A stretch of 22,893 nt of DNA from a virus. Of the stretch, positions 2,894-15,930 are shown in pieces; position 1 is the first letter of the stretch; each line of letters opens with the position of its first letter. Location: the IMG/VR virus record IMGVR_UViG_3300048672_000177, positions 1 through 22,893 of that record, one strand, 5' to 3'. The notes under the pieces were generated by a model. That model did not search any database, was not told the DNA's origin, and saw only the letters and a program-made list of their open reading frames with translations. A program made the translations under genes and the position numbers.

Positions 2894-3157
2894 ATGCCCT
2901 CTTCTAAAAACTATAAAAGAGATTACAAAAAGGAATATGAGAACTACCAGGGCTCTAAAGAGCAGAAGAAAAAAAGAGCATCTAGAGGTAGAGCACGTTA
3001 TTCTCTTATGAAAAAAGGTAGAGTACGTATTGGAGACGGATTAGATGTCGATCATAAAGATACAAACGCCAATAATAACTCAGCTAAGAATCTAAGAGTT
3101 CAGTCTAAATCTGCTAATCGAAGTTATCCACGTAATAAATCAGCAGGTAAGAAATGA
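2894..3157 (+). CDS. Small free-standing HNH endonuclease, 87 aa
   Basis: A compact, very basic protein. The HNH (beta-beta-alpha-metal) motif is visible in the C-terminal half: LDVDHKDTNANNNSAKNLRV (about residues 52-71), with the DH pair, a middle Asn and NLR, followed by the SANRS stretch common in phage HNH enzymes. The N-terminal half is a Lys/Arg-rich helix. The start at 2894 has AAGG about 7 nt upstream. It sits just before the small terminase, a position where many phages carry an HNH nuclease that assists packaging cleavage with the terminase; a homing-nuclease role is the alternative. The stop overlaps the next ATG (ATGA). Confidence 0.85.
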   Translation: MPSSKNYKRDYKKEYENYQGSKEQKKKRASRGRARYSLMKKGRVRIGDGLDVDHKDTNANNNSAKNLRVQSKSANRSYPRNKSAGKK

Positions 3158-13552: not shown

Positions 13553-13628
13553 AGCGGGTATAAATCACTGGTAGATTATCAGTCTCATAAGCTGAAGGTA
13601 GAGAGTTCGATTCTCTCTCCCGCCACCA
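13553..13628 (+). tRNA. tRNA-Met (CAT), acceptor stem imperfect
   Basis: D arm AATC-actggta-GATT, anticodon arm TCAGT-ctcataa-GCTGA with anticodon CAT, and T arm GAGAG-ttcgatt-CTCTC are all canonical, followed by TCCCGCC-A-CCA. Against this 3' acceptor strand the 5' strand reads AGCGGGT, so pair 1-72 (A-C) and pair 7-66 (T-T) are mismatched, and one extra base lies before the D stem. The anticodon stem lacks the GGG/CCC of initiators, so it is elongator Met (or Ile2 if lysidine-modified). Encoded CCA is present. The mismatches may mean early decay. Confidence 0.7.
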
Positions 13629-13633
13629 AATAA

Positions 13634-13726
13634 GGAAATCTTGTAGATATGGCGTGTTCTACAGCGGACTGTAAATCCGCTCCCACTGGGTAAACAATCT
13701 TGGTTCGACTCCAAGGATTTCCACCA
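13634..13726 (+). tRNA. tRNA-Tyr (GTA), class II with encoded CCA
   Basis: Acceptor GGAAATC/GATTTCC pairs in all 7 positions; D stem GTAG/CTAC; anticodon arm GCGGA-ctgtaaa-TCCGC with anticodon GTA; a long variable arm containing CCC-act-GGG; T arm CTTGG-ttcgact-CCAAG; discriminator A and CCA. All features of a bacterial-type tRNA-Tyr are intact. Confidence 0.92.
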
Positions 13727-13731
13727 AATTT

Positions 13732-13803
13732 AGATACTAGTTAATCTGATGAAATACAGTAATCATGTACCTACGTGTTCAAGTTCGAGTCTTGAAGTAT
13801 CTA
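13732..13803 (+). pseudogene. Decayed tRNA or tRNA-like element
   Basis: AGATACT (13732-13738) pairs perfectly with AGTATCT (13796-13802), and the T arm TCAAG-ttcgagt-CTTGA is canonical with normal spacing to the acceptor; the total length, 72 nt, is also normal for a tRNA. But the D arm has no GG and no proper stem, and no 5-bp anticodon stem with a 7-nt loop forms in the middle, so no anticodon can be read. No CCA follows. It is most likely a degenerating third tRNA, less likely a functional tRNA mimic. Confidence 0.5.
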
Positions 13804-13831
13804 CTTAATTTTCGTTTACTTTTACGATAAA

Positions 13832-13925: not shown

Positions 13926-14234
13926 ATGGCATTAACTAATTTTGCTGCATTAACAGCAGATCAAAAAATGGTATGGTCTAAAGACCTATGGAAAGCAGCT
14001 CGTGATATGGCTTTCATCAATAAATTTATTGGTGGTAGTGATTCAGTTATTCAACGTATCACTGAATTAACTAAAACTGAGAAAGGCGAAAAGGTCATTA
14101 TGCACCTGTTGGCTGATTTGGTCGAAGATGGTGTTGTCGGTGACAACGAGCGTGAGAATAACGAAGAAGAAATGAAAACATACAATGATACGATCACTAT
14201 TGATCTTATCTCACACGGTGTACGCCAAAAGGGT
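13926..14234 (+). CDS. Major capsid protein, exon 1 (residues 1-103), N4-gp56 type
   Basis: The main head shell protein, split by a group I intron. Exon 1 encodes MALTNFAALTADQKMVWSKD... to LISHGVRQKG, the N-terminal half of the N4-gp56-type capsid family. AAGGA lies before the ATG. The frame continues 24 nt into the intron (YLNSSYA, stop), which is an artefact of unspliced reading. Splicing after T14234 joins codon GGT to AAA at 15136 and restores RQKG-KLAEQKTVVTFRENA, exactly the continuous family motif. The two exons give 367 residues. Codons (ggt, cgt, gaa, cac) are those of a highly expressed gene. Confidence 0.9.
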
Positions 14235-14389
14235 TATCTAAATAGCTCCTACGCTTAATCTCGTAGAAAAGTCCTCTAATTGCTGGAATATCCTTAGAGT
14301 CTTTCTAACTACAAAGTAATCTGAAAAGATAAACTTGAATGTTTGAAAATAGAAAGAATTGGACAATCAGCAGCTAAGATACTAAGGTA

Positions 14390-14418
14390 TTGACAAATAG
14401 TGATATTTGTGGTATACT
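14390..14418 (+). promoter_or_regulatory. Sigma70 promoter inside the intron, upstream of the endonuclease
   Basis: TTGACA (14390-14395), exactly 17 nt, TATACT (14413-14418). This is the closest match to the sigma70 consensus in the window. It overlaps the intron core between Q and R and lies 70 nt before the HNH ORF, so it can drive the nuclease separately from the capsid transcript. Confidence 0.65.
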
Positions 14419-14487
14419 ATGTATAAAGTTCAACGACTAGAACGTAAGTTCGTAGTGTTCAAGAGAATACCAAATGGGGACTAACTT

Positions 14488-15075
14488 ATGCATATTTGCA
14501 AACAATGCGGTGAAAAAGATATATCTAAATTTTATACAAGATCTGATAACGGTAAACCCAGGGGTTTATGTAAATCTTGTTTAAACACTAATTCTTTAAT
14601 TAGATACTCTGAAAAGAAAGCTGAGATCGCTATAAAAGAGAGCCAGTACAGAGCGCTAAATAAAGATAAAATTAGACAAAGAAAAGCCATATATTATATT
14701 GATAATAAAGAGCACATCTTAGAAAGGTGTCAAAATTATAGGTTAATAAATAAAGATAAATATCTAGAATATTCTAGAAAATGGCGTAAATTAGATTTAG
14801 ATAGATATAGAAAGTTGAGTTTGAAACAAACATCTTTAAAACGTGCTAGAAAGCTTCAAGCTACATTTAAAGAGATGTCAGAATGGCATCAGTTTATGTT
14901 AGATGAAATATATGATCTTGCTTATATTAGATCCCAGGCAACCGGGATAAAATGGCACGTAGATCATATAGTCCCATTAAAATCTAAACTTGTTTGTGGA
15001 TTACATCATCCAAATAATTTGCAAGTTATACCTGCAACTGAAAATCTCAGAAAAGGTAATAGGTTAAAGATATAG
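14488..15075 (+). CDS. Intron-encoded HNH homing endonuclease, 195 aa
   Basis: Expected to cut intron-less capsid alleles so that the intron spreads by repair. The N-terminus is a zinc-binding ribbon (CKQCGEK...GLCKSCLN, residues 4-34, two CxxC pairs). The middle is a long basic helical linker with repeated NKDK/NKEH units (about 55-115), a layout seen in DNA-tracking linkers. The C-terminus has the HNH motif WHVDHIVPLKSKLVCGLHHP NNLQVIPATENLRKGN (about 156-191). A GGGG site lies about 9 nt before the ATG. The stop TAG (15073-15075) is inside the P7 3' strand. Codons are AT-rich and unlike the capsid exons around it. Confidence 0.9.
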   Translation: MHICKQCGEKDISKFYTRSDNGKPRGLCKSCLNTNSLIRYSEKKAEIAIKESQYRALNKDKIRQRKAIYYIDNKEHILERCQNYRLINKDKYLEYSRKWRKLDLDRYRKLSLKQTSLKRARKLQATFKEMSEWHQFMLDEIYDLAYIRSQATGIKWHVDHIVPLKSKLVCGLHHPNNLQVIPATENLRKGNRLKI

Positions 15076-15135
15076 TCTGATCTCTATAGAAATATAGAGA
15101 GATCTATTGGAATCGAATAGATCGTAACATTAATG

Positions 15136-15930
15136 AAATTGGCAGAACAAAAAACTGTTGTTACCTTCCGTGAAAACGCTAAAGAACGTCTGGCCTACTG
15201 GCTAGCAAATCGTATGGACCAATTGGCCTTCTTGACTTTGTCAGGTATTGGCTATAGTTACAACAATGATGGTTCAGCTCGTGCCACTACTGCATTCTCT
15301 CAGTTATCTTTCGCAGCTGATGTAGCAGCTCCATCTTCTCTACGTCATCGTAGATGGGACGGTGTTAATTCTACTTTGGTAGCAGGTAACACTGCAACTA
15401 TGCTGGCAACAGACACTCTTACTTACAAAGCTATTGTAGATATCGTTGTCTATGCTAAAACTCATTACATCAAACCATTGAACATGGGCGGTAAAGAATA
15501 CTATGTAGCTTTCGTTCGTCCAGAAGCTTTAGCTCAATTGAAAAAAGATCAAGACTACCAAAGAGCAGTTGTAACTGGTGCTGATCGTGGTAAAGATAAC
15601 CCATTCTTCTCAGGCGGTATTCTAACTGTTGATGGCGTGATCTTCCACGAACATCGTTTAGTCTTTAATACTAAAGGTGCTTCCTCTGGTTCTAAATGGG
15701 GAGCTTCTGGTACTATTGACGGTTCTAGAATGTTGTTGTGCGGCTCTCAAGCTCTAGGCTTTGCTGACTTGGGTGCTCCAGAGTGGTCAGAGAAATGGTT
15801 TAACTATGACTCTTCCCCTGGTATCAACATTGATAAAATGTTCGGTTTTATGAAACCTAAATTCTACAGCATTTATGACAAATCTGTTGAAGATTTCGGT
15901 GCATTGTGTATCGACCATGCTATTGCGTAA
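15136..15930 (+). CDS. Major capsid protein, exon 2 (residues 104-367), N4-gp56 type
   Basis: Encodes KLAEQKTVVTFRENAKERLA through LCIDHAIA and contains the family's conserved RLAYWLANRMDQLAFLTLSG, DIVVYAKTHYIKPLNMGGKE and VDGVIFHEHRLVFN. An ATG at 15133-15135 gives the false look of an independent gene start; its G is the last base of the intron, no Shine-Dalgarno precedes it, and the preceding family motif is in exon 1. The TAA at 15930 is followed by a strong terminator hairpin. Codons resemble exon 1 (cgt, ggt, ttc, cca), consistent with one very highly expressed gene. Confidence 0.9.
   Translation, partial: KLAEQKTVVTFRENAKERLAYWLANRMDQLAFLTLSGIGYSYNNDGSARATTAFSQLSFAADVAAPSSLRHRRWDGVNSTLVAGNTATMLATDTLTYKAIVDIVVYAKTHYIKPLNMGGKEYYVAFVRPEALAQLKKDQDYQRAVVTGADRGKDNPFFSGGILTVDGVIFHEHRLVFNTKGASSGSKWGASGTIDGSRMLLCGSQALGFADLGAPEWSEKWFNYDSSPGINIDKMFGFMKPKFYSIYDKSVEDFGALCIDHAIA

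Follow-up and report, generated by a model that had tools for sequence, protein, structure and literature searches.

A group I intron, probably mobile, that splits the major capsid gene of an uncultivated podovirus, and recurrent intron entry into the capsid genes of its relatives

The locus analysed here raises the question of how a phage produces its major capsid protein when the capsid gene is split by a 901-nt insert, and what this insert is. The window, that is, the whole stretch of DNA analysed, consists of 22,893 bases and represents a single metagenomic contig (an IMG/VR virus record) with the gene order terminase, portal, lysozyme-like gene, an acidic (probably scaffold) gene, capsid and tail-side genes; the carrier is an uncultivated podovirus, with Pseudomonas phage KPP25 as a distant relative. 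Directly upstream of the capsid gene, the window encodes tRNA-Met and tRNA-Tyr, and a degenerate, tRNA-like stretch at ~13731-13805 may be a third (the whole tRNA region spans 13553-13805); a small, apparently free-standing HNH_3 ORF of 87 aa is located at 2894-3157.

Both capsid exons are open, and each by itself matches a different portion of the same profile, PF13252: positions 1-96 for exon 1 (E 1.2e-10) and positions 101-374 for exon 2 (E 2.7e-27). Joining T14234 to A15136 yields one 367-aa protein with a single match to positions 1-374 of the 376 in PF13252 (E 7e-44) and a score of 92.2 bits against the NCBIfam model TIGR04387 (capsid_maj_N4), for which the cut-off is 60; the predicted joined product is an N4-gp56-type major capsid protein. 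The same junction had been proposed in a sequence-only reading of the window, and it is correct to the base, as judged from the continuous profile match and from relatives that read straight through it.

That reading also identified the insert as a group I intron, which is borne out by the RNA family matches, the core helices, their covariation and the existence of empty sites in relatives. Cmscan detected the Rfam family RF00028 in both halves of the insert, at 14225-14490 (39.4 bits, E 3.3e-8) and at 14986-15099 (40.7 bits, E 1.3e-8). Thus, the covariance-model search that had been suggested as a check is positive by E-value and negative by score, with either half under the RF00028 gathering score of 50 bits, so that a default Rfam scan of the window reports zero introns and an E-value scan is required to reveal the two matches. 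Each half falls below this score because a 195-aa HNH endonuclease gene fills P8. The elements P, Q, R, S, P7 and P9 that had been claimed were all located, along with P1, P3, P4, P8 and omega-G (Table 1), and in P1, the splice-site U14234 forms a U·G pair with the G of AUAGCUCCU. The intron with its exon ends, in which the ORF loop was replaced by a short linker, folds at -89.6 kcal/mol compared to -66.3 +/- 4.1 for shuffled sequences (z = -5.7), none of the 100 shuffles being equally good. The unconstrained fold of this ORF-less intron contains P1, P3, P4, P8 and P9 (it is the source of the P8 and P9 assignments); P7 is absent because it is a pseudoknot, which is beyond such folds. A P7.1-like hairpin between P7 and the 3' strand of P3 would fit subgroup IA, so that the intron is tentatively called IA-like.

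Table 1. Features of the split capsid gene and its intron (window positions; RNA letters for intron elements)
Feature	Positions	Strand	Evidence or remark
Major capsid gene exon 1	13926-14234	+	103 codons, final codon GGT; PF13252 1-96, phrog_334 1-104; unbroken in relatives
P1	14229-14250	+	AAGGGU/UAU (14229-14237; slash, splice site) pairs with AUAGCUCCU (14242-14250); cmscan alignment, MFE fold
Group I intron	14235-15135	+	901 nt; RF00028 in both halves, E ~1e-8; fold z -5.7; exact empty site in relatives
In-frame UAA	14256-14258	+	exon 1 frame, 22 nt into intron
P3 5' strand GUCCUC	14271-14276	+	covariation, 19 introns
P4 5' strand UGCUGG (element P)	14281-14286	+	cmscan and helix comparison, 19 introns
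P4 3' strand UCAGCA (element Q)	14367-14372	+	cmscan and helix comparison, 19 introns
P7 5' strand GACUA (element R), guanosine-binding helix	14435-14439	+	cmscan and helix comparison
P3 3' strand GGGGAC; also likely Shine-Dalgarno of HNH gene	14476-14481	+	helix comparison
P8 5' strand UAACUU	14482-14487	+	pairs with AGGUUA 15061-15066; fold
Predicted HNH (endonuclease VII-like) homing endonuclease ORF, 195 aa	14488-15075	+	inside P8; frame intact
P8 3' strand AGGUUA	15061-15066	+	fold
P7 3' strand UAGUC (element S)	15073-15077	+	UAG within is the HNH stop codon
P9, then peripheral hairpin	15081-15123	+	cmscan alignment, fold
Omega-G	15135	+	final intron base
Major capsid gene exon 2	15136-15930	+	begins AAA TTG GCA; PF13252 101-374, phrog_334 104-379

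Comparison of 19 introns shows covariation in the core. In P7, all 19 introns are paired, in the forms GACUA/UAGUC, GUCUA/UAGAC and GAUCA/UGAUC, the two variants being fully compensated, and P4 shows standard pairing in 16 to 19 of the 19. At each base pair of P3, 18 to 19 of the 19 introns pair standardly, with GC, UA, CG and AU alternatives and many compensatory changes, but these counts are flattered because complementarity, within ~100 nt, was the criterion for choosing the P3 partner; in most introns, this partner lies directly 3' of a conserved GAAAN.

Capsid relatives were gathered from IMG/VR by two scans, of which only the best-scoring loci entered the intron census, itself made with a lineage-built profile; the scan with exon 1 kept the best 80 of 346 matches. 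Protein-to-genome alignment with free intron placement covered 153 loci, and an intron-core profile was searched through all 162. In 130 of these 162 loci, the capsid gene is uninterrupted and the whole locus is devoid of intron matches. Among the intron-free relatives, the closest (L007-L009), with 90% (exon 1) and 83% (exon 2) protein identity to the window, cross the intron site of the window without one extra base. Just 3' of the capsid gene in L007 (4804-4840), there is an Rfam match to abiF RNA (40.4 bits, cut-off 37), which may be merely a terminator-like hairpin.

On this evidence, we consider it very likely that the insert in the window is a mobile, IA-like group I intron, the self-splicing of which would restore the full-length major capsid protein. 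Without splicing, the UAA in frame with exon 1 means that the RNA would yield only a 110-aa fragment.

The capsid gene of this podovirus clade is a recurrent intron target. After collapsing at 97% identity, there are 101 distinct complete capsid genes, of which 15 contain 27 introns and 86 contain none; four further introns are in partial loci (L045, L068, L091 and L106), which brings the total to 31 group I introns, distributed over 19 distinct phages and about 16 sites, with a maximum of four per gene (~1.1 kb). In the coordinates of the window capsid gene, the sites are at about nt 12, 49/52, 83, 162, 170, 216, 222, 234/237, 294, 309, 332, 377, 666, 729, 812 and 1008; the nt 309 site is occupied in the window, L035 and L091. 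Four introns each are found in L142 and L167, three in L069, and two each in L002, L025, L033 and L041. Intron presence varies with identity to the window capsid gene, from 9 of 21 genes at >=75% to 0 of 16 at <55%. Conservation is higher at intron sites than at random positions (mean 0.809 vs 0.756, p ~1e-4, in a test that includes one mis-mapped point, L022, placed at nt 263 when its true site is nt 12), as expected if the endonucleases favour conserved targets.

Most of the junctions fit the U and the G exactly, with three exceptions (L142 nt 49, L025 nt 234 and L167 nt 237) in which the best-fitting 3' splice site lacks the G, junctions being approximate near codon 17 (L025, L069, L142) and near codon 78 (L025, L167). 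These three introns may be decaying, or the missing G may reflect altered exon codons or errors of assembly. Most of the introns in the clade encode an HNH endonuclease, a few encode a LAGLIDADG endonuclease (the intron ORFs of L031 and L142 match Pfam LAGLIDADG_2), and several are ORF-less; within the four-intron loci, L142 (3148-7423) and L167 (594-3638), there are introns with HNH, with LAGLIDADG or with no endonuclease. The hotspot and the endonuclease gene of the window intron were both absent from the sequence-only reading, and we found no report of a capsid-gene intron hotspot in N4-gp56-type phages in the literature.

Over 176 nt, the window intron and the intron at nt 216 in MW202615.1 share about 92% identity, whereas the two capsid genes share 79.6% DNA identity and the intron sites differ, which points to lateral movement. 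Two introns within a single gene of L033 have cores that are 82% identical, compared to the mean of 62% between sites. At each of nt 222 and nt 1008, HNH introns and LAGLIDADG introns share the site in different phages. A group I search of the complete 65-kb MW202615.1 genome gave the two capsid introns and nothing else, and in the 11 intron-bearing IMG/VR records that were searched whole, every match was found inside the capsid gene; this silence of RF00028 elsewhere is weak evidence because the model misses some known introns. An exclusive restriction of the clade's introns to the capsid gene was considered and rejected: among six searched records with an intron-free capsid gene, one, that of L009, has a DNA polymerase gene with a group I intron. 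This intron (L168 1100-1850, record G012) contains an HNH-type ORF and splits the gene, which encodes a family A DNA polymerase, between RDQAKTFI and the next exon. The capsid gene is strongly preferred by the introns of this clade, but not exclusively.

The ORF of the window intron is predicted to encode an endonuclease VII-like HNH homing endonuclease. It matches phrog_26577 (E 1.3e-20) and phrog_1035, endonuclease VII (E 1.4e-16), has many phage relatives by tblastn, and contains motifs readable in the sequence, namely, an N-terminal CxxC...CxxC and HVDHIVPL...NNLQVIP; the match to Pfam HNH is sub-threshold (11.6 bits). Its placement relative to the ribozyme recurs across the clade. In nearly all HNH-bearing introns, the purine-rich 3' strand of P3 (GGGGAC, GGAGAA, GGGAGA and similar) lies a few nt 5' of the ORF start, appearing as the obvious Shine-Dalgarno sequence of the endonuclease (the ORF start in L022 is uncertain), and the endonuclease stop codon is inside the 3' strand of P7 (element S) or at most ~35 nt away. 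Furthermore, the frame that continues from the upstream exon meets a stop codon at most ~40 nt past the splice site in all of the introns examined. In the td intron of phage T4, the ribosome-binding site of I-TevI is hidden by RNA structure, the ORF extends into the core, and freeing I-TevI translation damages td splicing (PMC2988022). With a ribosome-binding site in P3 and a stop codon in P7, translation of the endonuclease should compete with folding of the ribozyme in the present introns as well, so that a conflict similar to that in T4 td would be expected, with P3 itself as the gate.

Under the scenario that we favour, the transcribed intron RNA would fold and, using guanosine as the cofactor, excise itself, so that codon 103 (GGU) would be joined directly to AAA and the full-length capsid protein could be made. 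Ribosomes on unspliced RNA would halt at the UAA close to the 5' splice site and hence would not enter the ribozyme core. When a relative lacking the intron infects the same cell, the HNH endonuclease presumably cleaves the capsid allele of that relative, and repair of the break would copy the intron in, that is, result in homing. We are highly doubtful that the window intron no longer splices, the contig being a defective or decaying allele. Such loss is suggested by those introns of the clade that lack omega-G at the best-fitting junction, but the window intron retains the U·G pair of P1, all core helices, P9 and omega-G, its HNH frame is intact and both exons are open. That there is no splicing at all, with the capsid built from two separately translated peptides or made by ribosome bypass as in T4 gene 60, is hardly credible: although there is an in-frame ATG in both parts (13926 and 15133), the second one consists of the last three intron bases and has no Shine-Dalgarno sequence upstream, a covarying ribozyme core is present, and inserts at about 16 points of the capsid gene cannot all be explained by a single two-part design.

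Granted self-splicing, the intron might be chiefly regulatory, delaying or tuning capsid production, rather than selfish. The capsid is a high-output late gene, the expression of which would hinge on splicing, and the ribosome-binding site and stop codon of the endonuclease overlap or adjoin core helices. This interpretation is nevertheless unlikely, given that most of the distinct genes are intron-free, the positions vary, endonuclease families differ at one and the same site, and several introns have lost the ORF, which is the pattern of a parasite and not of a conserved switch. Less improbable, albeit still doubtful, is that the intron owes its persistence to an advantage for the carrier phage, whose relatives, when infecting the same cell, would have their capsid gene attacked by the intron endonuclease. 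The location of the intron sites in conserved stretches of an essential gene is consistent with this possibility, and a precedent is known in gp210 of PhiPA3, which acts against co-infecting PhiKZ (PMC11620839); however, the same pattern is predicted by ordinary homing, and such attack is compatible with the self-splicing, homing intron that we favour. Tentatively, the two can be combined: the capsid gene might be an arena of homing warfare in which many intron lineages enter conserved sites, the endonucleases cut the capsid gene of rivals, and the ribozyme gates the nuclease through the ribosome-binding site in P3 and the stop codon in or next to P7, so that the nuclease would be made only from RNA that is not folded to splice.

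The surprise expressed in the sequence-only reading at an intron in a capsid gene was overstated, because introns of this kind are already known from mycobacteriophage LittleE (PMC3706429) and from crAss-like phages (PMC7886860). The LittleE (Cluster J) intron, of ~0.8 kb and probably of group I, likewise carries a homing-endonuclease gene in the major capsid gene, is preceded by U and ends with G, and has intron-free relatives; a further likeness to the window intron is that a 156-bp piece of it is common to an intron in another gene. In contrast to the window, LittleE has another capsid family and host, a LAGLIDADG ORF on the opposite strand and one intron. Its splicing was proven by RT-PCR and N-terminal sequencing, whereas that of the window intron is deduced from sequence; the lactococcal phage Tuc2009 is also listed as having a capsid-gene intron (PMC3706429). 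In crAss-like Delta and Zeta phages, MCP genes contain one to several introns, one gene being in five pieces (PMC7886860), and the likeness to the present clade extends to group I introns with up to four inserts per gene. However, in these phages, the genomes are larger, introns and inteins occur in many of the genes, and stop codons are recoded, whereas the window clade consists of podoviruses of ~60-69 kb that seldom have introns in genes other than the MCP (a single case, in a DNA polymerase gene, was found).

Among systems outside capsid genes, T4 td with I-TevI is similar in being a mobile group I intron with an ORF that ends in the ribozyme core and a ribosome-binding site sequestered by RNA structure (PMC2988022), but differs in its GIY-YIG endonuclease, its host gene and the use of a separate hairpin, instead of P3 of the core, to hide the ribosome-binding site. 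The Bastillevirinae and Twort introns are also of type IA, encode HNH or LAGLIDADG proteins, number up to three per gene and have ribozyme matches that are interrupted by the ORF, but they reside in genes for DNA polymerase, terminase, nucleotide reductase and thymidylate synthase, with none in capsid genes (PMC11878797). What is added here is an independent, dense invasion of the capsid gene in podoviruses and a uniform layout of the endonuclease gene.

The closest annotated relative of the window virus, Podoviridae sp. ctwe8250 (MW202615.1; L002, 11348-16524), has two group I introns in its capsid gene, at nt 170 and 216 as opposed to nt 309 in the window. Both are unrecognised in the annotation, and the deposited MCP CDS (14185-15042) is truncated to 285 aa, with its start inside an intron. 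As this example warns, gene callers truncate or split such capsid genes. The clade provides a natural series of capsid alleles with 0, 1, 2, 3 and 4 introns for measuring what splicing costs and by which route the introns spread; in the intron-bearing phages, between one and four self-splicing events would be needed to make the most abundant structural protein.
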